From Begonia masoniana (taxonomy: Eukaryota > Streptophyta > Magnoliopsida > Cucurbitales > Begoniaceae): a DNA stretch of 64,000 nt. Location: assembly GCA_022432975.1 (NCBI GenBank), contig CM039506.1, positions 16,566,121-16,630,120 on the forward strand, given 5' to 3'. Of the stretch, positions 673 through 61,029 are shown in pieces. The notes beneath the pieces were generated by a model. The model was given only the letters and a program-made list of their open reading frames with translations. It ran no database searches and was not told where the DNA came from. The position numbers and the translations under genes are program-made. Numbering within the stretch: the stretch's first letter is position 1; every line of letters starts with the position of its first letter.

Positions 673-1571
673 TCTTGTAGCGCCCCCGAACCCACCCTGG
701 CTCGGTGCGCTACTTTGCTAACCAGTCTCACGTTAAAACCTCATTAAAAAAAATAAAATTAACACCGCAGGATTTAAACTAAATCTCCTAAAACTCTTTT
801 AGGTCATACCTAGCTGCCTAGACTCACTAATTCCCTTATTCCTAACCATTAAGCACCACGGCGTCCTTCCCAAAAATTTCGGCAAAGTAACGCCTGTAAA
901 TGGCGCCTCCAAAATGCTAGGTACCTGCAAACGAATAAAACCCAACCAATCCAGAATATTCCTAACCATCTAACCAACCTACGAAATCTCCAAATAGCAG
1001 TAAAGAGGAAAACTAAAATACTAACATCTCTAACTGAAGAAAGTCCACAGTACAGGGCGACACGTCACCCTTAACTATGACTATATACATCAAATACAAA
1101 TAGTTATGCAATAACTCTAAAAACATAAATCAAAAAGAAAGTTACGCATTCCCATCATTTCTACAAACAGACATTTACAACAAACTACCAAAGGAAAAAA
1201 CCCACATTCCCCGAAGACCATGGTGGAGTCGCCCCGACAACTGCCCGCACCAGCACGCCCCGTGCATCTCCGACTGCTCCCAAGTTTGGCTGACTCACAA
1301 AGCTCACTTGTACACCTGTCGTTACCTACACCACAGAACACACACGCACACGTAAGCTTACGCTTAGCAAGTAGGGATTAACAAATACGACTAGAAAAAA
1401 TGCAAGCTACACACAATGCTGAACAAAACAACCAAACAACACAACGACACGAAACACAACACCACAACACCACAATGCAGTCAACCTAGCACATGTAGTT
1501 TCTACTCTCGGTTGTATGTATCACGTTCTCACTTCATTATTCGTAGGCGTACCTCTCTCGTAGAATATCAT

Positions 1572-1960
1572 TCTACTCGAGACACATTTGCGTTTCTCTC
1601 AAGTAGCACTCGAGACACAGTTGCGTACCTCTCGAGTAGCACTCGAGACACAGTTGCGTACCTCTCGAGTAGCACTCGAGACACAGTTGCGTACCTCTCG
1701 AGTAGAACTCGAGACACAGTTGCGTACATCTCGAGTAGCACTCGAGACACAGTTGCGTACCTCTCGAGTAGCACTCGAGACACAAATGCTTACCTCTCGA
1801 GTAGCACTCGAGACACAGTTGCGTACCTCTCGAGTAGCACTCGAGACACAGTTGCGTACCTCTCGAGTAGCACTCGAGACACAGTTGCGTACCTCTCGAG
1901 TAGCACTCGAGACATATCAGCGTACCTCTCGAGTAGAAATCCTTCTACTCGAGACACATT
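1572..1960. repeat. 33-bp palindromic minisatellite in the element A LTR
   Basis: About 11 head-to-tail copies of a 33-bp unit. Each carries a perfect 7+3+7 palindrome, CTCGAGTAGCACTCGAG (two XhoI sites), plus a spacer ACACAGTTGCGTACCT. Because 33 is divisible by three, several frames stay open and translate as an 11-residue repeat; I do not regard these as genes. Edge units are more diverged (for example ACACATTTGCGT and GACATATCAGCGT). Confidence 0.93.
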
Positions 1961-2932
1961 TGCGTATCACACTGTTGCATATCTTACATTTCATCCTCAC
2001 AATTCAAATTATGCTAAACTCTCGCTCATTTCGTAGTGCTCAACCAAAAAAAAAACGAAGCAACCACACAAACAACAAACAAACAATTGTCCCTACCGTT
2101 TTGTGGTGTAGGCCCGAAGGCAAAAGGCACACATCCACTACTTACCTGACGTCCTAGCTCGCTGAGGATATTCGGTTACCTGTCCACCTACGGCTCGACC
2201 TACGACAAATATTCAAACTTTATTAAAATCAAGCCTACATCCACCAATTACTCTCAAACTACTATTTCTAATCTAATCCAACTAAAACCTAACTAAACGG
2301 GTCACTAATTTGAGTTCGGTAAAAACCGACCCGAACTCAAACGTGCATAACTTTCGCGTCGGATATCGGAATTGAACGATTCCAGCGGCCACGTACTCCT
2401 CTAATCACCTATTTTACCCTGCCAAAAGGAATTTGAAAACAAAAAACTAGCAAAACCCGAACTGCCCCTTTACCCGAAAAATCCTCCTTTTCGATTTTCC
2501 ATCAATTCTCACTCAATTCCTCACCAATCAATCCCCCTCATACCTAATTAACATAAACTAACCAAAATTCAGAGGCTACTCACAGAAAACCCAAAATGCC
2601 CAAATCGGGCTTACTGAATTTCGCCCAAATTGGGCTCCTCACGGCCAGGCAATTAAAGCCGGCCTAAGGTCCGGCAATCTCGAGCCAAGACCACCCAAAA
2701 ACGGCTGGTGATCGGAGCAAAATTGGACTCGTCACCGTCGGCCACGACAGAACCGAAAACAGGGCAAGAATAGGGCTTACCGTTCGGTTTGCGCGCTGAG
2801 ACTGGCCGGAAACCGCACGTCGCCGTCGTCTGGCTGGAAAGCATCGGAAATCGCCGGTGAAGAGGCCGCCGATCGTCGCCGCTTCTCCCTCTTCTCTCCC
2901 CTGTTCCTCTCGGCGTCGGGCTCGGGCTCGAG

Positions 2933-4271: not shown

Positions 4272-4604
4272 TATGTTACCTACACCATAGAAACACTTAT
4301 GAGCTAAAGGCTCAGTAAGCTTCGTAAATGAAAATGCATGCTGTGCATATGCAGTTCATAAAATCATATAGTTATTTCATTCATTTCATTACATAGCGGG
4401 ATGTCAACGGGAGTTTAGTCTCACCAGATGGAGAAGGAACATCTCGCTGTTAGACAACCCTTTTCATCTACATGGGGGAAAATATGCTCCTCTTTTTAGG
4501 ACAGCCATGTCTGAACCCCACCTCGACATGACCGGGATTACATACATTCATATCTTTTCATTAGTCGTTTCTTTTCATGAAAACGTATGCAGCAATTCAT
4601 TTTT
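4272..4604 (-). mobile_element. T0 3' LTR, left fragment
   Basis: LTR sequence of the host Tekay element T0, cut on the left by the copia LTR and on the right by T1. It carries the 3' pairing arm CCTACACCATAG (4279-4290), the acceptor-like GTAG end and the small hairpin TGAGC-CTTTA-GCTCA (4300-4314). The matching 5' arm and donor are about 22 kb away at 26510-26522 and 26554, because T1 inserted between them. The flanks of T1 both read TTTTT, confirming continuity with 26331. Confidence 0.8.
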
Positions 4605-7072
4605 TGTAGCGACCCTAAAACTGTACCTAATTTTCCCGTAATTATTTTTTTTATACATAAACTTTAACCTAACGTTCGAGCGGAAATTAAACTTTAAAAA
4701 TCGGAATTGAAACCGAAATCGTTATAGTCGTTTCATTTAAAACAAACCTTAAAACAATAAAAAAAAACAATTTAAAACTATTAAAAACAATCGGCCAGTG
4801 AAACAAGACAAAAACAGGGGCAGAAGGGGCAATCGCCCCCTAAAATGAAGGGGTGATCGATCGCCCAAAACGGGCGATCGATCGCCCATCGGCGATTGCT
4901 GGTTTTGCCAGCGATCACCTCACCAGGCGATCATGGATCTCGGCGCAAACAAAGAGGGGCGATCGATCGCCCAAAACAGGCGATCGATCGCCAAGTCCTC
5001 TGGAATAAATTCTAGAAGACGCCTCCCTAATACATCTCCGTACTCTCGCTCAAAACCGACTCGAGACGCATTTAACACGAAATACGTTTTCACGAAAACG
5101 AACTGCATGGATGTATTTAAAAACAGAACATATCCCTATAAAATCGGTTACCAAGCAGTTACAAAATACATTTCCAAAACGTTTAAAAACTTGAAACATA
5201 AACCTATCTACTATTCAGAACCAAACATCCTAAAATGTTTCTAACTATACAATAATCCACAATTGACCCAATTCGCCCAAAAACCCTCAAAATACCTAAC
5301 CGTTACCCCCACGGGTCAAAATACGCGTCGACTGCCCATGTACACCACCGCAGCCGTTCTTCTTCAACCATCCTGTACATCGGGTTAAGGAACGTCGTCC
5401 TCACCTGCTTCGATATCACCTACACCATACAGACACACTATGAGCTAAAGGCTCAGCAAGTTTCATAAATGTAAATGCATGCTGTGCGAATGAGTTTCAG
5501 AAATCATGCAACATTTTCTTATCATTATGTCGCAGACAGAATGTCATCGAGGTCTCAGCCTATTAGATGGAGAGGACACATCCCGCGGTCGGACTGCCCT
5601 CTTCACATAACCGGGGGGGGTGGGGGTACACGCTCACATCCGTAAACATCCGTGCCTAAGCCCCACCTCGGGAAACCAGATAACAGATTACATAATTTCA
5701 TTTCGTTCATTAGTTTCATTTTCTTAAACACGTGCAGAAATCCGTTTTTCATGCTATTTTGAAATACGTGATGCATGAACAATTACAAACATAAAGTAAA
5801 CAAACATATTAAGTACCATCAAGACAATAAAAGTAATTAAAAGCATATCCTATAAAAGAACTAATCCTAACTACCCAACCTAAACATTTAATAAACGATT
5901 CTCCAAAGATCCTTGACGCGACATCGTCGTACGGTGTACGCCTCTCGGCCAAGTAAGTCACGAGAACTTACCTCTTGCGCGCTGAACTTCGAGCTCCATC
6001 CAAGAGTGTCGTTTGCCTGAGGCAAAACACAACAGCTGTCGTTAAAACAAGATTTAAACCGTTAAACGTCCAAATTTAACGAAACCTTAACTAAGAAAAT
6101 TTTCCTAAAATTCTAACTTATCTTTGAGACATTTTATCGAGCAATTCATGCTCGTGAACTTCTAAACTCCATTGAGGGAAATTTTCCAAACCTCAAATAT
6201 CCGTTTTTCAACCTAAACGCCGTATACACTCTAGATTTCATCCAATAACGTTTAATACGTTCAATATACTCACCAATAAAATAAACCTATGAATTTCAAA
6301 CCCTAATTCGCGTTTTTCACAAAACCCTAAACGAAACTCTAACTGTTAAACGCTCTAAAAACTACGCATAATCTTTCTAAAACCATCCAATCTTACCTAG
6401 AAACCTATCCATGCCCTTATTAGAAGGCAATAAGGGCATTCCTCAACCTGGAACTTAGGCTTTTAGAGTGAATGACCGGGAGAAAGGAGGGAATATCCGA
6501 TATCAAAAGTCAATGCTCTTCCTAGAGAACTGAATCGAGTTTGGGGAAGGAAACGTGAAGAACGGAGGACGAACGGAGGAGGATAGCCGTTGAAAGGAAG
6601 GGAGTCGCCGTGAGAGGAGAGGAATCGCAGGGAAGAAGAAAATTGCATGGAGAAGAAGAAGAAGCCAAGTGTTTTTAATTAAATTTTGGCTTTGCAAATT
6701 ACCATTTTGCCCTTCCTTTGATTTTCTATTTGTTTTGTCCTTCGTTTCGTTAATTAATCGACGATTCGGTTTCTCCAAATTTTCTTACTTCACCAATGAA
6801 TCCAACTTATTATCAGGATTCTTTTAAAACTGTCCGTTCATAATTCGGACCTCGTTTACTATTTTTACCAAAGTATTCTTTATATAACGATAAACGTAAT
6901 TTTTGTTAAATTAGCGTTAAACTTCTAAAATTCCCAAAATATTCTTAAAATCCTTATAAATCATTAGGATCATAATAACGCTTTCTTTTTGCAAAATGGA
7001 CTTGATTTGACATAATAACAAAAATGCCATTATATTATGTAATTACAAAATCCCGTAAATCCGGGTGTTACA
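4605..7072 (-). mobile_element. T1 3' LTR
   Basis: 2468 bp. In element sense it begins TGTAACACCCGGA at 7072 and ends GGGTCGCTACA at 4605. A promoter-like box GGGCAAAATGGTAATTTGC (6694-6713) lies next to a TTTAATTAAAAA stretch (about 6671-6682). The donor-like GAG|GTAAGT has its first base at 5971; arms are 5929-5940 and 5419-5430; the hairpin is 5441-5455; the acceptor end is 5420 (552-nt segment). The region 4855-4995 is dense in GGCGATCGATCGCC-type palindromes. The U5 hairpin around CTCTGGAAT is decayed here (4996-5021). Confidence 0.88.
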
Positions 7073-8872: not shown

Positions 8873-9565
8873 TGTAGCACCCGGTTCTATTAAATCAAAC
8901 TTAATTACCAATTTAATGTGTCGAATTGAGAGAAAAATGATTAGGTTAGTTAATGGCTTCTCATGGGCAAAAGAGTAATTTGCAATTTGAGAAGTGGATA
9001 ACGTATTTAAGGAAAGGGGTTTTGGGTTTAATGCACTGTAGCCGCCACCAATTTCATACTTTTCCTCTTCGGGTTTTCAGCTCAAGCAGCCGAGCTCTCT
9101 AGGCGATTTTCCTCGCCCGATTCTCCTTCAACTTAAGTAAGTTTTCCTCATTTCTCTTAAGATATAGTGGTTAGTTACCTGAGGAAGTACAATGTGAGGA
9201 TTTTGAAGGTGCTGAGATTGAGCGTAGGTTCGGGTTCTTAGAGATAAAAGGGATTATACGGGTAGCAGAGTTTCAAATCGATTTCCTCAATCTTAATATT
9301 GATTTTTGGTAAGGTCTAGTGAGAGTTGGATTAATGTATTGCAGTAAACTTAGGTAAGCGAGCTTTTGGAGTAGTTGAAACCGAGCATGACCAGGAGAGC
9401 CAGGTAAGTAAAGTTTACTTGTGCCTTCGGGCCTACATCACAAAACATTAGGGTTTGTTTGCTAGAATGTGTTGGTATGTCATGCATCATATTTTTTTAA
9501 AAATATACGAAAATAAATTTGAATGCATGTTAGCATGGTAAGGATTGAACATATTAAAACAGTTA

Positions 9566-9786
9566 TGTGAATCAGATTTACTGTTAAGGGAACTAATCCA
9601 CCCCTTAGTGAGATAGTGGATATTTATACTTTGAGAGGGTTGATCTGACTTCCAATTTCACAGGGGGATCTGAACATGTGAATCAGCTTTACTGTTAAGG
9701 GAACTAATCCACCCCTTAATGAGACAGTGAATATTTATACTTTGGGAGGGTTGATCCGACTCCCAACTTCACAAGGGGATCTGAAC
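9566..9786. repeat. 111-bp tandem duplication in the T2 LTR
   Basis: Two adjacent copies (9566-9676 and 9677-9786), starting ATGTGAATCAG and ending GGGGATCTGAAC, with a few substitutions. The equivalent region of the H LTR (about 60150-60355) has a related but diverged duplication. Confidence 0.9.
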
Positions 9787-10470
9787 AGAAACGAAGCATG
9801 AACAACTGAGTTGAGAAAGTAGAAATTGCATGTTTAGGAATTTGCATTTCAGTGTTTCATTTCATTACTGCTTTACTTACTTAGCATTAGGCTAATAGAT
9901 GAGTTTTGTGATGTAGGTGAAGAAGTGACAGCAGGTGTGTTTACTGAGTCTGCTGAGGACTAGATTGGTTTTGGAGGGCATCTTTGCAACAATCTGGCAG
10001 CTGATGGGGCGGTTTAACTGATGTCAGTTGATGTGAAGGTCCAGTTGACAACGTTTAAATTTTAGTGTGTGTTGAGTTTTCATGACAGTAGTGGTTTTCA
10101 ATATTTCGAATATGTTTCTTTTCTTGAGCTTGTTGATAATAGTATTTGGTTAGGTATAAATGTTGATTTTACTGAAATTGAGTAATGTAAGGATTTGAAT
10201 GGTTCTAAATGGTTTCAGTGAAGTGAGCTCGTCCTTCTCGCAGCTAGAGATGTTTTTGTATGAAATTTGATTAGTAGAAATATTGTCTACTTTCTGTTGA
10301 GTTTCCTGGGTTACTTAGAGTCGGGGGCTTTTGAATGTCTTGAGTAAGTTTTTACAAATTCAACCATCGGTGAATGGAGTTCACCGGTGGATGTTGGGTG
10401 TTTGTTCGCTGATAGACATTGGCGGATTGAATCATCCGACTGACGTCACCGGATGATGTTGAGTATTCTA

Positions 10471-10740
10471 CTCACCGGTTGATGTTGTGTGTTAATCCAC
10501 CGGAAGATGTAGGAAATGTTTTGTCGCTTAGTGACCGGTGGATGTCGTGTGTTAATCCACCGGAAGATGTAGGAAATGTTTTGTCGTTTAGTGACCGGTG
10601 GATGTCGTGTGTTAATCTACCGAAAGATGTAGGAAATGTTTTGTCGTTTTGTGACCGGTGGATGTCGTATGATAATCCACCGGAAGATGTAAGAAGTGTT
10701 TTGTCGTCTAGCCACCGGTGGATGCTGTATAGTGTCGATT
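10471..10740. repeat. 60-bp minisatellite with built-in hairpins in the T2 LTR
   Basis: About 4.5 copies with exactly 60-bp spacing. Each unit carries CCGGTGGAT and, 11 nt later, its reverse complement ATCCACCGG (for example 10535-10543 with 10555-10563). Imperfect relatives of ACCGGTGGATG extend upstream to about 10370. A 128-codon ORF across the array is a by-product of the repeat length. Confidence 0.92.
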
Positions 10741-11139
10741 ATCCGGCTGACGTCACTGGAAGGTGTAGAGCGTATTTTGTCGTTTTGTCCTCGGGTGATG
10801 TCTTCTATTTTCTGCGTCAGCCCTTTTTATTGACTTGTTCAGCGGGCGACGTGTTTGACTTTTGAGACTTATGAAGTATTTTGCAATTTAAACCTTTATT
10901 CTTTTTGCTGATTATTCCTTAACATTTCAACTGAATAATCAAGCATCGTACAATAGCTTGTTTAACTTTTTACTTAAACGATTTCCACTGTAAGTCCTTG
11001 AATGTTTGAAGTTTTAGAAAATATCAAATTTTGACTTTCCAGTAGACCTTTAGGTTTGGTTCAAAGTTTATTTTTCTTTTCAAGTTTCGTGCAAGATTGT
11101 GTAACAAACCGAGTTCAGAAAACTCGGGTCGTTACAGTA

Positions 11140-14451: not shown

Positions 14452-14529
14452 GAGCACTTCCCGGAAGGTCACCCAACCTGGAATTACTCTCGCCGAAGCC
14501 CTCTTAACTTCGGAGTTCTTATGGGATCC
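14452..14529 (-). other. 5S rRNA-derived block, Cassandra left LTR
   Basis: On the minus strand it reads GGATCCCATAAGAACTCCGA, then AAGTTAAGAGGGCTTCGGC (box A region, within 14489-14510) and TGGGTGACCTTCCGGGAAGT (box C region, 14456-14475), a close match to plant 5S rRNA. It may keep internal RNA polymerase III promoter function. It is a retrotransposon-borne copy of part of 5S, not a 5S gene. Confidence 0.92.
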
Positions 14530-23979: not shown

Positions 23980-26330
23980 TGTAGTGACCCTAAAACTGTA
24001 CCTAATTTTCCCGTAATTATTTTTTTTTTATACTTAAACTTTAACCTAACGTTCGAGCGAAAATTAAACTTTAAAAATCAGAATTGAAACCGAAATCGTT
24101 ATAGTCGTTTCATTTAAAACAAACCTTAAAACAATAAAAAAAAAACAATTTAAAACTATTAAAAACAATCGGCTAGTGAAACAAGACAAAAACAGGGGCA
24201 AAAGGGGCAATTGCCCCTTAAAATGAAGGGGCGATCGATCGCCCAAAACAAGCGATCATGGATCGCGACGCGACCAAAGAGGGGCGATCTGGTTTTGCCA
24301 GCGATCGCCTCACCAGGCGATCATGGATCGCGGCGATACCAAAGAGGGGCGATCGATCACCCAAAACAGGCGATCGATCGCCAAGTCCTCTGGAATAAAT
24401 TCCAGAGGACGCCTCCATCTTTCCTTTTTCTTTTCTCTTCTTTCCTTCTGCTTCTTTCCTCCTCTTCATGCATAACCCTATAATTATAAACACAACTTAA
24501 CTAATGCTTTAACACAATTTCAATGTACACCGCAACCATACATTTCGACATCAAACCACTCGATACTCATACATCTCTGTACTCTCGCTCAAAACTGACT
24601 CGAGACACATTTAACACGAAATACGTTTTCACGAAAACGAACTGCATGGATGTGTTTAAAAATCGAACATATCCCTATAAAATAGGTTACCAAGCAGTTA
24701 CAAAATACATTTCCAAAACGTTTAAAAACTCGAAACATAAACCTATCTACTATTCAGAACCAAACAACCTAAAATGTTTCTAACTATACAATAATTCACA
24801 ATTGACCCAATTTGCCCAAAAACCCTCAAAATACCTAACTGTTACCCCCACGGGTCAAAATACGCGTCAACTGCCCATGCACATTACCGCAGCTGTTCTT
24901 CTTCAACCTTCCTGTACATCGGGTGGAGGAACGTGGTCCTCACCTGCTTCGATATCACCTACACCATACAGACATACTTTGAGCTAAAGGCTCAGCAAGT
25001 TTCGTAAATGCAAATACACGCTCACATCCCTAAATAGCCGTGCCTGAGCCCCACCTCGCGTAACCAGATAACAGATTACATAATTTCATTTCGTTCATTA
25101 GTTTCATTTTCTTAAACACGTGCAGAAATCCATTTTTCATGCTATTTTGAAATACGTGATGCATGAAAAGTTACAGACATAAAGTAAACAAACATATTAA
25201 GTACCATCAAGACAATAAAAGCAATTAAAAGCGTATCCTATAAAAGAACTAATCCTAACTACCCAACCTAAACATTTAACAAACGATTCTCCAAAGATCC
25301 TCGACGCGACATCGACGTACGGTGTAGGCCTCTCGACCAAGTAAGTCACGAGAGCTTACCTCGTGCGCACTGAACTTCGAGCTCCGTCCATGAGCATCGT
25401 TTGCCTGAGGCAAAACACAACAGTTGTCATTAAAACTAGATTTAAACCGTTAAACGTCCAAATTTAACGAAACCTTAACTAAGGAAATTTTCCTAAAATT
25501 CTAACTTAATTCTTTGAGACATTTTATCGAGAAATTCATGCTCATGAACTTCTAAACTCCATTGTTGGAAATTTTCCAAATCTCAAATATCCGTTTTTCA
25601 ACCTAAACGCCGTATACACTCTAGATTTCGTCCAATAACGTTTAATACGTTCAATATACTCACCAATAAAACAAACTTATGAATTTCAAACCCTAATTCG
25701 CATTTTTCACAAAACCCTCAACGAAACCCTAACCGTTAAACGCTCCAAAAACTACGAATAATCTTTCTAAAACCATCCAATCTTACCTAGAATCGAGTTT
25801 GGGGAAGGAAACGTGAAAAAAGGAGGACGAACGGAGGAGGATCGCCGTTGAAAGGAAGGGAGTCGCCGTGAGAGGAGAGGAATCGTAGGGAAGAAGAAAA
25901 TTGCGTGGAGAAGAAGAAGAAACCAAGTGTTTTTAATTAAATTTTGGCTTTGCAAATTACCATTTTACCCTTCCTTTGATTTTCTATTTGCTTCGTCCTT
26001 CGTTTCGTTAATTAACCAACGATTCGATTTCTCTAAATTTCCTTACTTCACCAATGACTCCAACTTATTATTAGTGTTCTTTTAAAACTGTCTGTTCGTA
26101 ATTCGGACCTCGTTTACTATTTTTACCAAAGTATCCTTTATATTACGATAAACGTAATTTTCGTTAAATTAGTGTTAAACTCCTAAAATTCCCAAAATAT
26201 TCTTAAAATCCTTATAAATCATTAGGATCATAATAACGCTTTCTTTTCGCAAAATGGACTTGATTTGACATAATAACAAGAAAGCCATTATATTCTGCAA
26301 TTACAAAATCCCGTAAATTCGGGTGTTACA
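23980..26330 (-). mobile_element. T1 5' LTR
   Basis: 2351 bp, TGTAACACCCGAA at 26330 to GGGTCACTACA at 23980 (element sense). Donor-like GAG|GTAAGC first base 25359; arms GTACGGTGTAGG (25317-25328) and CCTACACCATAC (24958-24969); hairpin 24980-24994; acceptor end 24959 (401-nt segment). It is shorter than the 3' copy because about 150 bp is missing near 25016. U5 has a perfect 12-bp hairpin, GTCCTCTGGAAT / ATTCCAGAGGAC (24385-24410), and GGCGATCGATCGCC-type palindromes (24230-24382). Confidence 0.9.
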
Positions 26331-27419
26331 TTTTTAATGCTATTTCAGAAAAACATGATGCATGGACATATACGGTGCGTTAAACGTAAATAAAACATAG
26401 AAAAAAATCAATTAAAACATAAAACATCCTATAGCTTAAACAACCTAACTATTCATCCTATTTACACTAAAACAACCTAAATCATCAATTTCCTCAATAA
26501 ATGAACTTTCTTGTGGTGTAGGCCAAATCAGCCAAGCAAAGCACGAAGACTTACCTCAAGTCCTTAGCCTTACTTTTGTCAATCTCAAATAACCTAACAA
26601 GACATCAAAATCAAACATTTAACACACACACTAGAATTTTTTCGATTTTACACTACAAATTTTTGTCCAATTTCAAACGTTCATAACTTCCTCGATATAA
26701 CTTGGAGTCGAGTAATTCCAAGTGCTATGGACTCATCTAAGAGTCTCTAATGGTACAAATAATTTACCAAAATAAAACCAATTAATAGGTCGAATATCAC
26801 AAGAACAGAACCTGTTTTGTTTTTAGCATTTTCAAAACAGTTTTTCTACTTTTTGCAAACCAATGAACCAAACTCCTATACAATCCTTAACAATCCTTAA
26901 AACATCATTTTAACACATTTAACTCATCAAACAAGAAGAATTTCAAAAGAATATCAGAATTTTCGTTGCTAAAAAACCACTCCAAAAATCAATTCAAGAC
27001 TTGAAACTAATCATCAACTAACCTATCTAAATCATAAACCATACTTATCTTACCTTTTATCTTCAAAGAAAAGGAGGTTTTGGCTGAGGAAAGATCAACT
27101 ATGGAGTGAGAAGATCTGTTAAAGGTCGTGGAGAAGAAGAAGGGCTTTAGGATTTATAAAGTTTAACTAATGCTTAATTACAATTTAACCACATAACTAT
27201 CTATTTGATCAATTTGGTTTCTCTTTTTTTTTTTTTAACGTGTCTATTTGCTTTTCTTTTGTTTTTCTTCTCAAACATTTAATCCTCCTTTCATTTAAAT
27301 CATAATCTTTAATTGTCTCATACTAATTTTCATCTCTTCCTTTGTTATTTTCATCTCTCGATTAAAACAATCCATCGATTATTATTAGGACAAAATGTAC
27401 AAAAGTTTCAGGTGTTACA
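26331..27419 (-). mobile_element. T0 3' LTR, right fragment
   Basis: Continuation of 4272-4604 after the T1 insertion. It holds the donor-like GAG|GTAAGT (first base 26554) and the 5' pairing arm CTTGTGGTGTAGG (26510-26522). In element sense the LTR starts TGTAACACCTGAA at 27419. The polypurine tract AAGGAGGGTGCAA adjoins it at 27420-27432. A poly-T run is at 27223-27236. Confidence 0.85.
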
Positions 27420-28009: not shown

Positions 28010-30298
28010 TGTCACGACCCTAATACTGTACCTGTATTGCCCGTACTATTTTTTTTTTATACTTATTATTTTAGATAAAACTTAATTAAACTTTAAACGG
28101 AAACTAAACCGAAATCGAAATCAGAAATTGAATCTAACTTTCGAAGCTTTTAAACCAAACTTAAAAACAATTTAAAAACAAATAAAATAACTATTTAAAA
28201 CAATTAAAATTATTTAAAACAATAAAGAAATCGCGGAGGGGCAAAACCGGAAAACAGAGGCGCTGCACAATGCAGCGACCAGTCGCTGCACTTGGAGCGA
28301 CCAGTCTCATTTGTTTCTCTCTGGAATCCGAGATTCCAGAGAGCAATCCAACGTTTCAGAGAGCCGATTTCAACATTTCATTGTATTTCATCCATTTCAT
28401 TACTCAGTATTGCACCCTAATTAAACGACATAAACCTACGTTAAACTTTCGTAAAAACGAATTGCATGGATACGTTTAAAAGTTGTCTAACCCTCCTGTT
28501 ACAAATTTCCACGCAGTTCCAGTAAAAACTATAAAAATACAGATTATAAACAGATTTCCAAAATGTTTAAAACCATTAAACCTATCCAATCCAAACATGT
28601 TCATCTATACATTTGTTAAATCCCCCAAAATACTTACGCAGACATCCCCACGGGTCAAAACGCGCACCGACTGCCCAGCACACTCCCACGGGTCATCATT
28701 CTTCAACCAATCATGCCTCGGGTGGAGGGATCTCATCCTCACCTGTGTAGAGGTCACCTACACCATAAACATAAGTCGTGAGCTTAAGGCTCAGTAAGTC
28801 TACGTGAATGCAATGCATGCTATGCGTGCCGTTCGTAAAAACATGCTTCCTACCTTTTCGCTATTCATTTCATTTCATTACATTACAGATACGTCACCGT
28901 GGCCTCACTCTCGCTAGATAGGAGTGGCACATCCTACGATTGGATAGCCCCTCGTATCTAACCGGGGGGGGGAAACATGCTCCCCAAGCAGCCATGTCTG
29001 AACCACTGCCATGTCCTTGACCAGATTACATTCATTCATATCATTTCATTAACCTTTTCCTTTTCATGAAAACATGCGTAGAAATTCTTTTTTCGTGCTT
29101 TTCAGAAACATGATGTGTGAACATGAGCAATACTATAAACATAATTAAAACATAAACATATAAACCCTCATACGTACCATCAAGACACTCAAGCATAACC
29201 TACAAAAGAACTAATCCTAACTACCCGACCAAAGCATTTAAACAAACAATTTTCCAATTTTCTCGAACAACAAAATATCATATGGTGTAGGCCAATCGGC
29301 CAAACAAGTCGCGGAGACTTACCTGATGTCCGTTGAATGCTAGCTCTGTCCAAGAGCGGGTGCACCTAAGGCAACTCACAACGATTATTACTAAAATGCA
29401 ATTGAACCAATAACGTCGAAATTAATAAAATCCTTAACAAAAGGAGTTTCCTAAAATTCCAATTTAACTAATCGAGGCGTTTTATCAAACAATCAACGCT
29501 CGATATCACAAACCACCATTTACGAATTTTTCTCTAAATCTCACCAATTTCGACTTTTCTCACAATTCGCTATAATTTCGTCCAATAACGTTCCATACAT
29601 CTTGTATATCTATATTTACAGTAAATCTATCGATTACGAAGCCTAATCGACATTTTTAACAAAATCCTAAACAAAGCCCTAATCGTCATAAATCTTAGAA
29701 ATCGAAATCTAACGTACCGAAGCTATGGAATCTTACCTATAGCGTTGAGTGGAGAAGAAAATGTGAAGGAACGGCGTTGATCGGAGGAGAAATCGGCGTC
29801 GGTTGAGGGAGAATCGCCGGCGTGCGTGAGGGACAGAAACCAGAAGCTCTCTGGTTCTTCGCGAGGAGAGAAACAAATGAGGGAGAAGAGGATTTAAGTT
29901 GTTTTTATAAAATTGATTTGGCAAATTACCATTTTGCCCTTACTTCTATTTTATATTCATTTAGTCATTCGTTTCGTTAATCGGCTAACTATTCGGTTTC
30001 ACCAAATCTCCTTATTTCACCAATAATTCCAACTTATTATTTGGGTTCTAACAAAACTGTCCGTTCGCAAATCAGACCTCGTTTACTATTTTTACTAAAA
30101 CGTCCTTTATATTACGAGAACGTAATTACTCGGAATTAAGCGTTACTACTCCGGAAATTCTCGTAAATTCCTTAAAATCCATATTAATAATTAGGATCCC
30201 AACGAAACCTTCTGTTCGTAAAACGGGCTTGATTTGACATATTTACAAAAATGCCATTTATATTAAAATATTAATAACCCGAAAAGTCGGATATTTCA
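28010..30298 (-). mobile_element. F 3' LTR
   Basis: 2289 bp; in element sense it starts TGAAATATCCGAC at 30298 (mutated from TGTAATATCC) and ends GGGTCGTGACA at 28010. Donor-like CAG|GTAAGT first base 29322; arms TATGGTGTAGG (29281-29291) and CCTACACCATA (28757-28767); hairpin 28779-28793; acceptor end 28758 (565 nt). Perfect U5 hairpin CTCTCTGGAATC / GATTCCAGAGAG at 28317-28343, next to GCTGCA/TGCAGC palindromes (28260-28300). Confidence 0.9.
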
Positions 30299-32668: not shown

Positions 32669-34933
32669 TGTCACGACCCTAATACTGTACCCGTATTGCC
32701 CGTACTATTTTTTTTTTATACTTATTATTTTAGACAAAACTTAAATAAACTTTAAACGGAAACTAAACCGAAATCGAAATCAGAAATTGAATCTAACTTT
32801 CGAAGCTTTTAAACCAAACTTAAAAACAATTTAAAAACAAATAAAATAACTATTTAAAACAATTAAGATTATTTAAAACAATAAAGAAATTGCGGAGGGG
32901 CAAAACCGAAAAACAGAGGCGCTGCAGATCGCTGCACTTGCAGCGACCAGTCTCATTTGTTTCTCTCTGGAATCCGAGATTCCAGAGAGCAATCCAACGT
33001 TTCAGAGAGCTGATTTCAACATTTCATTGTATTTCATTACTCAGTATTGCACCCTAATTAAACGACATAAACCTACGTTAAACTTTCGTAAAAACGAACT
33101 GCATGGATACGTTTAAAAGTTGTCTAACCCTCCTGTTACAAATTTCCACGTAGTTCCAGTAAAAACTATAAAAATACAGATTATAAACAGATTTCCAAAA
33201 TGTTTAAAACCATTAAACCTATCCAATCCAAACATGTTCATCTATACATTTGTTAAATCCCCCAAAATACGTACGCAGACATCCCCACGGGTCAAAACGC
33301 GCACCGACTGCCCAGCACACTCCCACGGGTCATCATTCTTCAACCAATCATGCCTCGGGTGGAGGGATCTCATACTCACCTGTGTAGAGGTCACCTACAC
33401 CATAAACATAAGTCGTGAGCTTAAGGCTCAGTAAGTCTACGTGAATGCAATGCATGCTATGCGTGCCGTTCGTAAAAACATGCTTCCTACCTTTTCGCTA
33501 TTCATTTCATTTCATTACATTACAGATACGTCACCGTGGCCTCACTCTCGCTAGATAGGAGCGGCACATCCTACGATTGGATAGCCCCTCGTATCTAACC
33601 GGGGGGGAAACATGCTCCCCAAGCAGCCATGTCTGAACCACCGCCACCTCCTTGACCAGATTACATTCATTCATATCATTTCATTAACCTTTTCCTTTTC
33701 ATGAAAACATGCGTAGAAATTCTTTTTTCGTGCTTTTCAGAAACATGATGTGTGAACATGAGCAATACTATAAACATAATTAAAACATAAACATATAAAC
33801 CCTCATACGTACCATCAAGACACTCAAGCATAACCTACAAAAGAACTAATCCTAACTACCCGACCAAAGCATTTAAACAAACAATTTTCCAATTTTCTCG
33901 AACAACAAAATATCATATGGTGTAGGCCAATCGGCCAAACAAGTCGCGGAGACTTACCTGATGTCCGTTGAATGCTAGCTCTGTCCAAGAGCGGGTGCAC
34001 CTAAGGCAACTCACAACGATTATTACTAAAATGCAATTGAACCAATAACGTCGAAATTAATAAAATCCTTAACCAAAGGAGTTTCCTAAAATTCCAATTT
34101 AACTAATCGAGGCGTTTTATCAAACAATCAACGCTCGATATCACAAACCACCATTTACGAATTTTTCTCTAAATCTCACCAATTTCGACTTTTCTCACAA
34201 TTCGCTATAATTTCGTCCAATAACGTTCCATACATCTTGTATATCTATATTTACAGTAAATCTATCAATTACGAAGCCTAATCGACATTTTTAACAAAAT
34301 CCTAAACAAAGCCCTAATCGTCATAAATCTTAGAAATCAAAATCTAACGTACCGAAGCTATGGAATCTTACCTATAGCGTTGAGTGGAGAAGAAAATGTG
34401 AAGGAACGACGTTGATCGGAGGAGAAATCGGCGTCGGTTGAGGGAGAATCGCCGGCGTGCGTGAGGGAGAGAAACCAGAAGCTCTCTGGTTCTTCGCGAG
34501 GAGAGAAACAAATGAGGGAGAAGAGGATTTAAGTTGTTTTTATAAAATTGATTTGGCAAATTACCATTTTGCCCTTACTTTTATTTTATATTCATTTAGT
34601 CATTCGTTTCGTTAATCGGCTAACTATTCGGTTTCACCAAATCTCCTTATTTCACCAATAATTCCAACTTATTATTTGGGTCCTAACAAAACTGTCCGTT
34701 CGCAAATCAGACCTCGTTTACTATTTTTACTAAAACGTCCTTTATATTACGAGAACGTAATTACTTGGAATTAAGCGTTACTACTCCGGAAATTCTCGTA
34801 AATTCCTTAAAATCCATATTAATAATTAGGATCCCAACGAAACCTTCTGTTTGTAAAACGGGCTTGATTTGACATATTTACAAAAATGCCATTTATATTA
34901 AAATATTAATAACCCGAAAAGTCGGATATTACA
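32669..34933 (-). mobile_element. F 5' LTR
   Basis: 2265 bp, TGTAATATCCGAC at 34933 to GGGTCGTGACA at 32669 (element sense). Arms 33916-33926 and 33394-33404; hairpin 33416-33430; donor first base 33957; acceptor end 33395 (563 nt). It differs from the 3' copy by scattered substitutions and a short indel within the GCTGCA palindrome region near 32930. Confidence 0.9.
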
Positions 34934-37411: not shown

Positions 37412-40022
37412 TGTAACGCCCGGGAATTTTAAAAGGAAAAATTGGAGAGAAAATAAAAGAATAGTAAAATAATTGTTTTAAGTAATTTAAAAATAAAAGT
37501 GAATAAGTTTGGTTAACCTAATTGGTTAATTAATTTAGACTCGGGCACTTCCAGTGAAATTAAGCCGAGGGTTATAATTAAGAACGAGATTTAACGGAAT
37601 TTACGGAAGAGCAAAACGGTATATTAAAAGAGTTAATAAGAATTTATAGGAGTATTGTTATTAGTATTATTATTATTATTATTATTATTAAAAATAATAA
37701 TAATAACAATAAAAACAAATCGAACAACAGAATCGATTTCTGTTGTTCGAGCTCGCCCGACGCCGAGAGACAGGGGAGAAGAGGGAGGCGACGAGCGATG
37801 ATCTCCGGCGTTCAACCTCGACGTTTTCCGGCCAGAAGACGTCGGCGAATCCTGGGCTGCCGTTTCCGGCCGACTCCGCGCACGAACCGACCAGGTGAGC
37901 TCGGTTTTCTCTGTTTTGGTTCGGTTTAGGGCTATGTGTGACGAGCTCGATTGAGCTCCGATCTCCGGCCAATTTGGGTCACCTCCGGCGTGGGTTTGCC
38001 GACCCTTGGTCCGGCTTTGGTCGACTGGCAGTGGTGAGCCCGATTTGGGCGAAATTCAGTGAATGCCCGATTTAGGGCACTCGGGTTTTGCTTAATGTAG
38101 CTTCGATTTTAGGTTAGATTATTCTAATTGAGTGTATATGTGGTCGATTGGTGAAGAAATTGATGAGTTTTGATGAAAAATCGAAAAAGAGAAATTTTAG
38201 GAAAAAGGGGCAGATTCGGGTTTCTGCAAAATTGACCTAGCTCCGGTCATTTGTTTTGAAATTCCTTTTAGCAGATTAAAATAGGTTATTAGAGGAGTAC
38301 GTGGCCGCTGGAATCGTTCGATTCCGATAACCGACGCAAAAGTTACGAGCGTTTGAGTTTCGGGTTGGTTTTTACCGAACCCAAATTAGTGGCCCATTTA
38401 ATTAGGTTTTAATTGGATTAGGCTAGATATAGTAGTTTAAGATGTTTTCACAAAAATGAGAGTTTAGTTATGCCCGAATGAGAAATTGGAAGTTTTAGGA
38501 AAGAATTTCCTTAATTAGGAGATTAGTTCAAGTTTGAAATTAGTTTAATTAGGATCGATTTTAATGTTCTTAATTGTGAAATGCCTTAGGTGGAGACGAC
38601 TTCAAGGACGGTGCACGGCTTGCTACGGACGCCAGGTAAGTGAGCGTTAGGCTTTCTGGCCACTAAGGCCCTACGTCGTACAATGTTGAAAATGTTGAAT
38701 GTATGAAGAAAGTGGTCATACGGGTAGCTAAGGAACGACGGGTAGTTAAGTAGTGCTTTAGTTATGTAGTAGTGCTCATGTGATAGGTTTTCCTTACGTG
38801 TATGTTAGTGTTCATCTGATAGGTTTTCCTTACGTGTATGTTAGTGTTCATGTGATAGGCCTTCCTTACGTGTATGTCTCCTCATGCATCATGTTTTCTT
38901 AAAGTGCATACGAACTGTTTATGAGCATGTTTTTATGATGATTGAATGAAAATGATTTAAAGATGATATGTGTTCTTACGGGAAAATGAATGATGTATGT
39001 TCTCACGGGAAAATGAAAGATGATATGTATTCTCACGGGAATAAATGAATGTTTCTCACGGGACTATGTTTCTCACGGGACTATGTTTCTTACGGGACTA
39101 TATGAATGTTTCTCACGGGACTATGTTTTTCACTGAACAAGAAAATGGTTTTACGAAATGAAACGAAACGAAACTGTTTTACAAATGTCATGCATATATG
39201 TAAAGTTATGTTTAGTACGCTCCTTACTAAGCATTAGGCTTAATGTAGTTATTGTATGATGTAGGTGACAGGTGTGAAGGTGAGAGTTCCTCTTGATGAC
39301 AAAGAACAGGTGGTCGATGGATGGTGCTCGTGGCGACGGGGTGTGTGTTTTGGCCTGGATTGACGATTTGATGGTGTGCCCGAACTGTTTTGGTGACAAA
39401 TGATGTGAGTTAGTTTTGTTGGTTAGTAGGTCTACGTGTAGGTTTAATTTGTGAAAGTATCAAAGTGTTTAAGTATATAGAATAGATGTTTTGATAGAAA
39501 ATGTGCGAAAAGTCAAGTTTTGATGTATATGTAGTGGCACTAGATTGTTTAGAATGATGTAAATGTAGTTGTAGTAGATTGTTTAGAATGTAAAGTCTTT
39601 ATTTTGGAGAATATACTGGAACTGTTTGGGTATTTTGAAATGTTTGGTTATTTTAAAACAGGTAAGGATACGCTCGATTTTTAGAGCGATCCACGCAGTT
39701 TGTTTTCTTGAGTATAGGTTATATTAGTGTTTTGTTTTAGTTGATCTTACTTTGAGTGTTAATTGTTTTAAGTTAGTAATGGTTTTAGTATAGTTCTAAA
39801 TGTTTTAAAAGTCAAAATGTTTTACGCTCAAAATGTTTAAGTCAAATGTTTAAGTCAAAGTTAGACCCCAAAGGTCGTTAGAGGTGAGTCAATTGTCTAA
39901 GTTAGTTTTCTATTAAAGTGTTAAGTAAAAATTGAAAAAGTTTATGAGAAATTACGAGGGCTTAGGTAACGATTATGTCACGGGAAGTCCGTGGCGGCCC
40001 TGATCGGGTTGGGGTCGTCACA
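37412..40022 (+). mobile_element. S1: solo Tekay-type LTR in D protease
   Basis: 2611 bp, TGTAACGCCCGGG to GGTCGTCACA, with perfect duplication TCTAA (37407-37411 and 40023-40027) and no internal region. It is related to the A and S2 LTRs at its start. Perfect 12-bp hairpin 37721-37749. Donor-like CAG|GTAAGT first base 38636; arms CCTACGTCGTACAAT (38670-38684) and ATTGTATGATGTAGG (39251-39265, two G-U pairs); hairpin 39228-39242; acceptor end 39264 (629 nt). Minisatellites: 36 bp x3 (38771-38880) and TCTCACGGGACTATG-type repeats (about 38970-39130). Solo LTRs arise by recombination between the two LTRs of one element. Confidence 0.93.
38771..39130. repeat. Minisatellites in S1
   Basis: Three copies of a 36-bp unit (TCATGTGATAGGTTTTCC...) starting at 38776, 38812 and 38848, then, from about 38970, short irregular repeats around TTCTCACGGGAAAATGAATG and TCTCACGGGACTATGTT. 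All lie inside the intron-like segment. Confidence 0.88.
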
Positions 40023-41128: not shown

Positions 41129-43994
41129 TGTAACACCCGGAAAATTCTTACAACGCGCGTAGCCTTAGATAGGTTATGTTAAGTAGTAAATTAGAATGAA
41201 AAGGTGGAAGAGGAATTTGAGAGAAAATAAAATGATAAGGTAATTGTTTAATAAATAGTTGTTTTAATTCATTTAAAAGAAAAGTGAATAAATTTGGTTA
41301 AACTAATTGATTAGTTAATTGGTGTTTGGATATTCTAAATGGAGAACTTAAGCTGGGTACGGGGTGAGGGTCAATTTACGAAAATTTATAATTTAAGAAT
41401 GGGATTTAACGAAATTTTCAGAAGGGCAAAACGGTAAATGTCATGTTATTAATGTTTTAATAGGAATTGTTATAATTATAATAATAATAATAATAATTAT
41501 TATTATTATTGTTTTTTTTTTAAATTAAAACAACTGAATGGCGATCGACACCATTCAGTTCTTCGTGGCCGAGAGCGAACAGGGGAGGGCTAGGGCGACG
41601 ATCGATGGAGCAATCGCCGACGACTACCGACGTTCTCCGGCCAGACGTCGGCGACGAGCTATTTCCGGCCTGTCTCTGTGCACAACCGACGGGTAAGTTC
41701 TCTTTTTGCCCTGTTTTTGGCTCTGTTCGAGGCCGTGGGTTGCCGAGCTGCTAGAGCTCCGATCACCGGCCGTTTTTGGGCGGTCTTGGCCTGAGTTTGC
41801 CGAACATTATGCTGGCAATCTTTGCCTGGCAGTGGAGAGCTCTTTGCGGGCGAAAAATCAGTAAGCCCTCTTCGGGCATTTTGAGTTTTGCTGTGTATTC
41901 TCGGGGTTTTTGGCTAGATTATGTTAATTGAGGCTAAATATGGTTGATTGGTGAGGAATTGTTGAGCATTGATGAAAAATCAAATTAGGAAAAATTTTGG
42001 GTAAAGGGCAGATTCGGGTTTTCTGCTTTTTGACCTAGCTACGGTCATTTGTTTTAAAATTCCTTTTGGCAGGTTAAAATAGGTTATTAGAGGAGTACGT
42101 GGCCGCTTGAATCGTTTGATTCCGATATCCGACGCGAAAGTTATGCACGTTTGAAGTTTCGGGTCGGTTTTTACCGAACCCAAATTAGTGGCCGTTTAGT
42201 TAGATTTTAGTTGGATTAAGCTAGAAATAGTGGTTTGGGAGTAATTGGTGAATGTAGGCTTGGTTTTAATGGAGTTTGAAGTTGGACTGTAAAATTGGCG
42301 TAAAACCGGGTTTTGAATGTTTAGGTTGAATTGTGTTATAGTTTTAGTTAGTTTAGGTTTAAGAATGTCTTTAGAGTTTACTAAATTAAGTTTCGTTATT
42401 TTAGGTGATCGAGTGATTGAATTATCGGACGAAGTGGACAATTGAGTTTCGAGCAACCAGGTAAGTAGTGGATTGCTTGTATTTTGCCTTCGGGCCTACA
42501 CCATGGAATGGTAGGGAATTATTTGTTTGTTTGCTTATTTGTTTCTTTTGTTTCGTGTTGCGTTTTGTTGTTTTGTTTCGTGTTGTATTGCATATCTTGG
42601 TTGACACATGCATCGTGAGTTATAGTACGCTACGCTAGAGATGAGTGGTTGCATTGTTTGGCATTGTGTTTGGCATTGTGAGTGGAGAGGGAAGGTAGTG
42701 TGTGCACATGTACCGCCCTACGAGGACCCACGTGACAGCAGTGTGTCCACGTGTACCGCCCTACGGGGACCCACGTGGCAGCCGTGAGTACACGTGTACC
42801 GCCCTACGGGGACCCACGTGGCAGCAGCCCTTAGTTGGGAACTGCACGGCTTAGTGTGCCTTGTCGGGATACGGTGTTGGTAGTAGCACCCCGAAAGGAA
42901 CTCTAATACGCAATCTGGACTAGTGTGCCTTGTCGGGATACGGTGTTGGTAGTAGCACCCCGAAAGGAACTCTATGAAGGATGACTGGCTAAAATACGTA
43001 ATGGTGGTTCTGGGAATGGCCGTCCTTGGGATGTGAGCTAAGGGCCGTCCTGTACGATTACGGGATGTAAGCTAAGGGCCGTCCTCGATTATAGGATGTG
43101 AGCTAAGGGCTGTCCTGTACGATTACGGGATGTGAGCTAAGGGCCGTCCTTGATTTTAGGATGTGAGCTTACCCGATTCACACGGCTTATGAAATGATTA
43201 AAGCAACGAACAACAAATAAACACAACTGAGTGGTAGAAACTGCATGGTTAGGTTGATTGCATTGTGTTGTTGTCTCATTCATTATTCCCTACTTGCTAA
43301 GCATTAGGCTTACGTTTTGTGTTCTATGGTGTAGGTGGCGAGTATTGTCCAGGTGAGATAGAGGGGACAACCGAGGACTAGGCGCAGTCGGAGGAGTTCG
43401 GGGCATGCCGGTACAGGCAGTTGTCGGGGCGTCACGACCATGGTCTTCGGGAGAATGTGGGACTTTATATTTTAGTAGTTTATTGTAGATGTCTGTTTGT
43501 AGAAATGATGGGAATGCTTAACTCATTTTGGTTGATATTTTTGATAGTTGTGGTATAGCTAGGTGTATTTGTGGTAATAGTCATAGGTAAGGGTGATGTA
43601 TCGCCCTGTACTGTGGACTTTCTTCATTAGGGATGTTAGTATTTTAGTTTCCTCTTTACTGCTATTTGGTGATTTCGGGTGATTTCGTATGCTGAATAAG
43701 TTGAGTAGAAGTATTCTGGATTGGTTGGGATTAGATTTTATGCAGGTATTTAGCATTTTGGAGGCGCCATTTTCAAGCGTTACTTTGTCAAATTTTTTTT
43801 TGGGAAGACGCCGTGTTATTTAACGATTAGAATTAAGGGAAATTAATGAGTTTAGGCGGCTAGGTATGAAGTAAGAGAGTTTTGAGAGACTTAGCTTTAA
43901 TTCTATTGTGTCAATTTTATTTTAAATTATGTTTTAACGTGGGAGTGGTTAGCAAAGTAGCGCACCGAGCCAGGGTGGGTTCGGGGGCGTTACA
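41129..43994 (+). mobile_element. S2: solo Tekay-type LTR in D gag
   Basis: 2866 bp, TGTAACACCCGGA to GGGGGCGTTACA, perfect duplication GATAC (41124-41128 and 43995-43999). Same family as the A LTR. Stem AACTGAATGG / CCATTCAGTT at 41532-41560. Donor-like CAG|GTAAGT first base 42461; arms CCTACACCAT (42495-42504) and ATGGTGTAGG (43326-43335); hairpin 43298-43312; acceptor end 43334 (874 nt). Three minisatellites fill the segment. Confidence 0.93.
42698..43170. repeat. Three consecutive minisatellites in S2
   Basis: (1) 43-bp unit x3 at 42698, 42741 and 42784 (core TACCGCCCTACGGGGACC). (2) 53-bp block TAGTGTGCCTTGTCGGG... x2 at 42852 and 42921. (3) About 33-bp unit x5 (GGATGTGAGCTAAGGGCCG) from 43028 to 43170. 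None matches the 33-bp palindrome array of the same-family A LTR. Confidence 0.9.
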
Positions 43995-54353: not shown

Positions 54354-54370
54354 TTAAATTTTGCGGACAA

Positions 54371-59043: not shown

Positions 59044-61029
59044 TGTAACGCCCCGAGTTATCTGAACCCGGTTTGCTACTCATAACGCTGAACCGAACCA
59101 TGACATCTTGATGCTAAATTTAAAATTTCACTCGACAGCCAAAATTTGACTTTTTCTAAGACTAAATATATTTTAAAACTTGCAGCGGAAAATCAATTGG
59201 ACATCAATGAAGCTAAGTAACCTGTGAAAACATTTTAAAATGACTGTTGGAAGTGTTAAGAGTAATTGGCTAAAAGACGTAAAGCTTAAAAAAAAAACGC
59301 GGAATGCCCGTGAAGTTGCCGAAGTCGAACACATCTGCCGACGACAAAGTCAACGGAAGAAGCAGAAATAGGAATTAGGAGGTTTCTACCGATGACGTGT
59401 ATAAACAACGCACCACCATCTACCGACAAGCCAACACAACTACATCTGCCGATGAAGTCAACATAACTTCATCTGCCGATGGAGTCAACATAACTTCATC
59501 TACCGATAGATTTCCATCTGCCGATAGACAAGCACGCGACATCTACCGACAACAACATTACGACTCCTTCCGATAAGATTAAAATATACACTACATCTGC
59601 CGATAGCAAAACTACAGGTTTTGCGACTTGCACCTGCCGATGACGTCAACAGGATGTTCTCTCTCTCATCCAACGACTTTACTGAAGGCACCTTCCGATA
59701 GGCAGAACGACAAAACTAAACATCCAGAAACAAACCAAATCACTGCCCTTCCCAAATTCAGTAAAAACAATGTTTTCAAAATCCAACAGAATACCAATAT
59801 CAGAAGATTCTCAAAAATGTATTCAAAGCTTTGAAACCACTATTGTCATAAAATTTTCAGAAAAACATCTATACTGAACTAGTTACCCTCAACTCAACAC
59901 CTGCGGCCATGGATTAAACCGCCTCAACAGATGACCAAACCGATGCCTGAAAATGCTCCTCCAACCAGCCTAATCCTCATGTTGGTCGGTAAACATACCT
60001 TCAGTAACTTCTTCACCTACATCACAAAACTCATCTATTAGCCTAACGCTAAGCAAGTAGAGCGATGAATGAAATGGATCAATAAAGTAATAATTTCCCT
60101 AAACATGCAGTCTCTACTTTCTCATCTCAGTTGTATTCAAATTCGTTCTCTGTTGATCCCTCTGTACGATGGGAAAGTGGATCAGTCATTCCCCAAAGCA
60201 TACATCCTCTGATCTCAATTAAGGGGCGGATTAATTCCCTTAACAGTTAACTGGTCTGATCCCCCTGTAGGATTGAGAAGTGGATCACTTTTCCCAAAAC
60301 CTCAATCCTCTGTTCTCAGTTAAGGGGCGGATTAATCCCCCTTAATAGTTGTTCTGATCATCCTGCTCACACTTACCATGCGTTTCATGTAAATTCATTT
60401 TCGCAATCTTTCAAAAACATGATGCATGACAACTGGAAAATAAACATACAAAACATACATAAATCCTACTATTTTGTGATGTAGGCCCGAAGGCACAAAC
60501 AAACTCTACTTACCTGGATTCTTGGCGAGTGCTCGGTTAGGAGCTTCTTCGGGATCTTTCTCACCTAGAACATAAACAGAACATTAAGTCAACCTGTACT
60601 AAACCTCATTCTAAGGCATTCAAAAAACCTAAGGGAATAGTTGGGAGTTCTGATCGCCAAGCATTACTGATTCTATGCTAAACCCGTATCTACTCACTTT
60701 CCTGATGAGTTCCCAAAATACATATCTAACACTTCCCCATACAATCTTCCTTAGTTACTAAGTCAGAAAAATCGAGGTAGAAACTTACCTAGCTCGGCGA
60801 ACGGACTCGGGGAAGGAAATCGCCTGGGAAGTCTGCTGGTTTGAGCTGAAAACCGAGAGCAAGAATGAATAGTGGCGGCTAAGCTCAATAAATTCTTTTT
60901 AAATAGGTTATCCACTAATAAGTTTTTAATTTACCATAATGCCCTTGCATATCCATTCATTAACCTAATCCATATTTGCACATCTTAATTTGACAAATTA
61001 AATTTGGTTTAATGGAACCGGGTGCTACA
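59044..61029 (-). mobile_element. H 3' LTR
   Basis: 1986 bp; element sense TGTAGCACCCGGTTCC at 61029 to CTCGGGGCGTTACA at 59044. Promoter-like box GGGCATTATGGTAAATT (about 60929-60945) and TATTTAAAAAG (60895-60905). Donor CAG|GTAAGT first base 60513; arms 60471-60485 and 60016-60030 (14 pairs); hairpin TTAGC-GTTAG-GCTAA 60038-60052; acceptor end 60017 (497 nt). A cluster of CATCTGCCGATG-like words (59330-59700) occupies the place of the T2 60-bp minisatellite. Confidence 0.92.

Follow-up and report, generated by a model that had tools for sequence, protein, structure and literature searches.

A pseudoknot of splice signals that probably locks an intron inside the long terminal repeats of Tekay-like retrotransposons in Begonia masoniana

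How can an intron persist inside the long terminal repeats (LTRs) of a retrotransposon? The question is raised by a stretch of 64,000 nucleotides (nt) from Begonia masoniana (contig CM039506.1, positions 16,566,121 to 16,630,120, here referred to as the window), which carries 12 LTR copies of related retrotransposons, labelled A, F, G, H, S1, S2, T0, T1 and T2. Retroelements must divide one transcript pool between RNA that is spliced and translated and RNA that serves as the full-length genome, and an LTR-internal intron is a paradox, because an element copied from spliced RNA would lack it in both LTRs. The survival of the intron studied here (intron 2) in thousands of copies implies that it is usually retained in RNA that undergoes reverse transcription. 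Our answer is that intron 2 is probably locked by its own structure and thereby stays in the RNA template of reverse transcription. The elements possess gag, protease, reverse transcriptase (RT), RNase H and integrase domains, with a chromodomain below its cut-off, and of the best 120 proteins, all that carry a named source come from plants, with identities of 42–65%. Their assignment to Tekay (Ty3/gypsy chromovirus) is a putative label that is based on domains and neighbours rather than on a phylogeny.

The original prediction described a donor AG/GTAAG (the slash marks the exon border), an arm shortly after it and a complementary arm running into the acceptor, and we found this order in all 12 copies, namely 11 unsplit LTRs and T0, which is split by the insertion of T1. 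AG/GTAAG and TGTAG/GT are present in 12/12 copies at the positions in Table 1; the first arm begins 30–36 nt past the donor and the complementary arm terminates in TGTAG/GT. The predicted donor-to-acceptor lengths, 401–874 nt across the 11 unsplit copies, hold as well. With up to two mismatches allowed, the arm pattern has 28 matches in the window compared with 8.6 ± 2.8 in shuffled sequence (0/100 shuffles as high). A stricter pattern of the 3' module gives 10 matches, all at these acceptors (shuffle mean 0.00), and misses only the two G copies, which have a different hairpin; the same pattern has 0 matches in the public collections genome_contigs and viral_contigs. Across the whole host genome (795,452,319 bases, 795 Mb), the arm pattern occurs at 15,100 places on one strand, versus 52 for the reversed pattern; the other strand gave 53,111 rows, in which one site is listed at several lengths. 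The LTRs belong to three groups (T0/T1/F/G, A/S1/S2 and T2/H, the last being group III). The statement that the flanking and inner sequence is otherwise very different was too strong, since families are about 66–79% alike within groups (blastn, LTR stretches). The middle of intron 2 is variable, at roughly 300–760 nt in the window copies. In A it holds a tandem array of about 15 units, each of 33 nt (window 1509–2003); the intron tolerates large insertions between its structured ends.

In LTRs of group III the order is TATA-like box (at LTR position 132 in T2 and 125 in H), CT-rich exon 1, intron 1, exon 2, intron 2 and exon 3. Intron 1 of this group has a donor that is mostly TAG/GTRAG, is 182–224 nt long and terminates in TAG/GT; exon 2 measures 42–57 nt in the 40 copies, from all groups, whose acceptor was located. 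Transcription probably starts upstream of both introns, which would place them in R or U5. We searched the genome with an exon 2/exon 3 junction pattern of one subtype (CCAG/GTGAAGAAGTKAC), whose exon 3 start is shared by 5/34 fetched copies (see below), and obtained two places, 6.1 kb apart on C9, against one for the reversed control. These are the LTR pair of a single element, 1,410 nt each with 27 mismatches and no gaps (98.1% identical), with a primer-binding site (PBS) and a 5-bp target duplication, CACAC, on both sides. In both LTRs exons 1, 2 and 3 are joined to the base at the predicted sites, and introns 1 and 2 are gone. In reverse transcription, R-U5 of both new LTRs is copied from the 5' end of the RNA, so that a spliced template yields exactly such an intronless LTR pair; a chance origin would require each LTR to have lost both introns by exact deletions, or a single LTR to have done so before conversion of the other. 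It is well supported that intron 2 is a true spliceosomal GT-AG intron whose spliced RNA has been reverse-transcribed, and the earlier suggestion of an LTR intron is borne out here by more than a motif.

The splice sites agree with this class. We compared them in the window copies and in copies fetched from the first 10 Mb of C1, where 34 of 40 yielded complete modules; L020, L022 and L028 (in which the rule used located no acceptor), L021 and L045 (donor not located) and L038 (cut by the chosen coordinates) were excluded, and L042, without CTTRC, was left out of the duplex-energy set, giving 44/45 copies. The 5' consensus AG/GTRAGT appears as AG/GTAAGT in 41/44 copies and 40/44 terminate in AG, in keeping with a 3' splice site AG/G. 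The branch site consensus is CURAY, 20–45 nt upstream; TTRCTNA is present in 41/44 copies, the next base being mostly G rather than Y. In 12 group-III copies intron 2 is richer in U than the exons beside it, as spliceosomal introns are: its T content is.30–.34, compared with.12–.24 in the preceding 50 nt and.23–.30 in the following 60 nt, while 200-nt flanks, which include intron 1, show little contrast. Precise removal in vivo is seen in both C9 LTRs, indirectly via reverse transcription.

The ends of intron 2 form four helices: P1, P2 and the hairpins HP1 and HP2. The conserved RNA fold that had been proposed is supported in this way, and was incomplete, as its arms make up only one of the four helices, P2. 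P1 starts at intron base +1, contains the entire 5' splice site (GTAAG plus 3–6 nt) and pairs it with a segment about 36 nt upstream of the acceptor. P2 pairs a segment 30–36 nt past the donor with the last 8–15 nt of the intron, AG included, and a URCUNA branch-site-like motif, in which the base after the branch A does not fit, is located at P1/HP2. Since P1 and P2 cross, they make a pseudoknot, which is predicted, with good support, to hold the 5' splice site, the branch-site-like motif and the 3' splice site all in base pairs. We estimate that there are tens of thousands of such copies in this one plant genome. A nested folding model gives P2 a probability of 0.86–1.00 in 8/11 copies. A nested alternative helix, GGTAGGGA/TCCCTACT (A and S2), was rejected; it lies outside the best helices of the other families.

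The covariation of the arms between families proved to be real, with P2 partners pairing better within a copy than across families. When partners were swapped (9/12 window copies), 48 of 362,880 permutations reached the observed P2 value; when each group was represented by a single copy, 24 of 5,040 did. For P1 with one bulge allowed, the numbers are 6 of 362,880 (nine copies) and 3 of 5,040 (seven groups), or 28 of 5,040 with no bulge; in terms of duplex energy, swapped P1 partners of 10 group representatives reached native stability in 1 of 200,000 permutations. Pair counting used 11/12 window copies, with one of the two near-identical F copies: 89.9% of cells are paired, versus 27.6–42.2% in slid controls, and 24 cells are doubly changed, versus 9.1 ± 2.3 in shuffled data (0/500 shuffles as high). 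The core of P1, GTAAG/CTTRC, is nearly fixed and the pairs beyond it change together, as AAAG/CTTT (T2), AGAG/CTCT (H), CT/AG (F) and TC/GA (G), as GAGCG/CGCTC (S1) and CTTCG/CGAAG (T0) past a bulged T, and, elsewhere in the genome, GAGTG/CACTC (L029) and ATGT/ACAT past a bulge (L046, L055, L059). P1 is weaker in T1b (GTAAGC, -5.8 kcal/mol) and Ga (-6.5 kcal/mol). All five pairs of HP2 are intact in 39/44 copies, with the variants TTAGC/GCTAA, TGAGC/GCTCA, TAAGC/GCTTA, TGAGA/TCTCA and G-U forms. The C1 copies were selected via the arm pattern and so hold little information on P2 variation. The splice-site strands are almost fixed (GTAAGT in 41/44 copies) and their partners drift via G-U (CTTAC/CTTGC, CTACACCA/CTACACCG, CTACGTCG), which is what one would expect of sites that are recognized as sequence and as helix alike. 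In the 12 group-III copies the mean pairing of the intron 2 ends is -14.2 and -15.7 kcal/mol, against -5.4 ± 1.9 when shuffled; the intron 1 ends of the same copies have means of -4.8 and -4.3 kcal/mol, like shuffled ends. The conserved pairing is well supported, and so is the splicing of both introns that the intronless element records.

Intronless and intron-1-less LTRs are natural records of introns spliced in reverse-transcribed RNA, and the latter are found with an exon 1/exon 2 junction pattern. A broad form of this pattern (255 places, control 0) was discarded as not specific for the junction, because 19/20 loci start intron 1 there with GTGAAC or GTGAGC. A stricter form gave 33 places in the genome (control 0), among which the C9 element has no match. 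L085, examined whole, has lost intron 1 and has a complete intron 2 including the acceptor. The remaining 32 places were seen as 166 nt each (10 nt from the end of exon 1, then exon 2 and downstream sequence, with the 3' end of intron 2 outside), and the start of intron 2 is retained in 30 of them, or in 31/33 with L085. These 30 comprise 22 that conform to the strict rule, five slightly changed in HP1 or P2a and three with an altered exon border or donor (L114, L123, L125). In L126 and L127 exon 2 is broken by another LTR, which makes 2/33 not assessable for intron 2. No joining to exon 3 was seen among the 33 places. They include several exon 2 types and eight pairs spaced 5–9 kb apart on one strand, like LTR pairs, so intron-1-less elements seem to have kept spreading. 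The retention of intron 2 where intron 1 is lost means that reverse-transcribed RNA can splice intron 1 and retain intron 2; this is predicted by a lock, and equally by a required signal inside intron 2.

Pairing from +1 through the terminal AG should hide the splice sites, which makes a role in locking, or one in the unspliced genome, likelier than a role in aiding splicing. As had been suggested, donor and acceptor are drawn together by the arms, but this is only one possible consequence of the fold, and hiding the sites is the likelier one. When folded, the pseudoknot would shut out the U1 small nuclear ribonucleoprotein, the branch-site machinery and the reader of the 3' splice site, and much of the RNA would exit the nucleus with intron 2 and be available as genome for reverse transcription; from RNA that is not yet folded, or no longer folded, intron 2 would be spliced out. 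The 3' strand of P1, which would occupy GTAAGT in place of U1, resembles the 5' end of U1 (ACTTAC). Pairing would in this way slow splicing, and the slowing would keep intron 2 in packaged RNA. As the intron persists only if the packaged RNA escaped splicing, inheritance of the element would itself select for the lock. If true, the pseudoknot lock is a solution to the transcript split that acts only in cis and needs no protein. We see about an even chance that it represents a new class of cis-acting RNA switch, in which a pseudoknot of all three core splicing signals locks an LTR intron and decides between mRNA and genome.

Several points weigh against the structure-locked intron. Judging from the C9 element, the lock leaks. 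Two of five pair-count measures are not above shuffles: pairs changed on both sides number 7 versus 5.5 (91/500 shuffles), and pair types 21 versus 19.9 (193/500 shuffles). P2 has a low probability in the nested model in A (0.55), T1a (0.20) and Gb (0.01), and the folding program cannot score P1 jointly with P2. The branch-site-like motif reads URCUNAG, without Y past the branch A. The two junction patterns differ in breadth and sample different subtypes, and related LTRs are not independent loss events. Moreover, a packaging or export signal within intron 2 would yield the same genome pattern. That the fold mainly signals full-length RNA (packaging, dimerization or nuclear export), being intronic so that spliced mRNA excludes it, is an explanation we hold to be rather unlikely. 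Retroviral packaging signals do sit downstream of the splice donor, and the start of intron 2 is retained at all assessable intron-1-less places. The MusD transport element, in the passage cited, is likewise a pseudoknotted RNA for unspliced export (PMC12786077). However, the helices span +1 to the last base and the branch-site-like motif, with which a packaging signal need not coincide, and the window copies of the intron range in length from 401 to 874 nt.

It is improbable that the fold aids splicing by joining the ends of a long intron, as yeast zipper stems do. The closeness of donor and acceptor and a P2 probability of at least 0.86 in 8/11 copies agree with this, but the pairing here starts at +1, and intron 1, without such pairing, is more often lost (as judged by patterns of different breadth). 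A self-splicing or self-cleaving ribozyme is very hard to credit. The strand order P1a, P2a, P1b, hairpin, P2b resembles folds like that of the hepatitis delta virus (HDV); nevertheless, Rfam, searched with the entire window at E up to 1, gave only two 5S ribosomal RNA (rRNA) matches, with no intron family, hence no group II core, and none to the pseudoknot, and the alignment has no invariant C between HP2 and the 3' arm of P2 that could be an HDV-like catalytic C. The splice sites conform to the consensus of the spliceosome, and the C9 LTRs have also lost intron 1, the ends of which are unpaired in the tested copies. Mere chance or common descent, with no function for the fold, would draw on the fact that all copies are related and that sequence conservation alone would preserve the complementarity of the arms; the compensatory changes between families (swap and slide controls) and the precise excision leave this reading next to no credit.

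Comparable systems share parts of this arrangement. In some retroviruses (deltaretroviruses and foamy viruses) the splice donor is in the R region and the genome is the unspliced RNA. Their donor in the LTR-derived leader is thus similar, but their acceptor is outside the LTR, whereas here both sites are inside. The plant LTR-retrotransposons Ogre, BARE1 and EVD carry introns like the present elements, and spliced and unspliced RNAs of one element divide roles; the introns of BARE1 and EVD are in the coding region, and the passages cited describe neither an LTR-internal intron nor a fold masking splice sites (PMC12786077, PMC3735527). Yeast zipper stems likewise join intron ends by pairing, but in the account cited they avoid splice sites (PMC12350175), which are themselves paired here from +1, in a pseudoknot. 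The MusD element is, in the same way, pseudoknotted LTR-retroelement RNA acting on unspliced RNA, yet it is described as an export element that is not made of splice signals (PMC12786077). LTR-started transcripts of the Echinococcus ta-TRIM are cis-spliced, sometimes within the element, although neither a conserved, fully LTR-internal intron nor a fold is described in the part cited (PMC4558846). The excerpt of a sunflower survey reports spliced elements and no Tekay among the expressed set (PMC7730604). Among the matches listed from open-licence literature, as excerpted there, none describes an LTR-internal intron; most subscription journals are outside this scope.

Table 1. Positions of LTR introns, helices and neighbouring features in the window.
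Feature	Position	Strand	Details
T2 LTR	8873..11136	+	PBS follows at 11140
T2 intron 1	9137..9353	+	217 nt, predicted; donor preceded by A, not G
T2 exon 2	9354..9403	+	50 nt between introns; CTTAG/GT acceptor upstream; equivalent exon joined in C9
T2 intron 2	9404..9916	+	513 nt, CAG/GTAAGT...GATGTAG/GTGAA; site type shown used by intronless C9 element
P1 5' strand	9404..9413	+	5' splice site GTAAGTAAAG; pairs with 9871-9880
HP1	9423..9432	+	hairpin GCC-TTCG-GGC, abuts P2
P2 5' arm	9433..9446	+	CTACATCACAAAAC; 14 bp with 9903-9916
P1 3' strand	9871..9880	+	CTTTACTTAC; URCUNA branch-site-like motif together with next bases
HP2	9881..9895	+	hairpin TTAGC-ATTAG-GCTAA
P2 3' arm	9903..9916	+	GTTTTGTGATGTAG; terminates at 3' splice site
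A intron 2	1326..2145	-	820 nt; LTR 676-3254
T1 3' LTR intron 2	5420..5971	-	552 nt; LTR 4605-7072
T1 5' LTR intron 2	24959..25359	-	401 nt; LTR 23980-26330
T0 intron 2, 5' part	26333..26554	-	interrupted by T1 insertion; inner border approximate
T0 intron 2, 3' part	4280..4604	-	beyond T1 insertion; inner border approximate
F 3' LTR intron 2	28758..29322	-	565 nt
F 5' LTR intron 2	33395..33957	-	563 nt
S1 intron 2	38636..39264	+	629 nt
S2 intron 2	42461..43334	+	874 nt
G 5' LTR intron 2	48140..48739	+	600 nt
G 3' LTR intron 2	55354..55953	+	600 nt
H intron 2	60017..60513	-	497 nt
H intron 1	60565..60788	-	224 nt, GTAAGT...CTAG, predicted; ends unpaired
Near-palindromic stretch, before 3' LTRs	about 61030-61075, 7073-7115, 54350-54390, 27420-27465		

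Exons 2 and 3 seemed to form one open frame when joined, their border falling in a Gly codon, but we do not claim that they are coding. Exon 3 does show a third-position bias, its differences at codon positions 1/2/3 numbering 22/25/45 (13 disjoint pairs). Against coding, those in exon 2 are 21/21/16 (seven pairs), without bias, the length of exon 2 is not a multiple of 3 in 15/40 copies, no conserved start codon was seen in exon 1 by eye, and the unspliced frame across intron 2 is likewise open. The exon 3 frame past the acceptor (e.g. 9917–9963) has its stop at codon 14–16 in 35/44 copies and encodes an acidic peptide, possibly a small coding tail or an upstream open reading frame. An alternative pol C-terminus spliced into the 3' LTR was also rejected, the tried donor motifs being absent from the last 1,500 nt (600 in T0) before four 3' LTRs. 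The donor-arm pattern has 11 matches in viral contigs; in 10 of them a partner arm is absent, and the single arm match in the remaining one, L005, is taken as chance; a scan of the viral contigs for RT fragments found none. Three plasmid records obtained by tblastn, all below 60% identity, were set aside.

Among loci L083–L102 we observed a subfamily with an unusual intron 1 donor, TAG/GTGAAC, in 15/20 loci. Two 99% identical repeats on the minus strand (window 14364–14752 and 14824–15212, with a PBS at 14810) contain 5S-rRNA-like stretches that score 39.4 bits each in Rfam (gathering 38); we presume that this pair, at 14364–15212, is a terminal-repeat retrotransposon in miniature (TRIM) of the Cassandra type. 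Between the pol stop and the polypurine tract, four elements carry a near-palindromic TTTTGAGGACAAAATT (TTTTGCGGACAAAATT in G, TTTTGGAGACAAAATT in T0). In the T2 LTR, downstream of exon 3 (window 10400–10760), repeat units of about 60 nt with ACCGGTGGATGT motifs were seen by eye.
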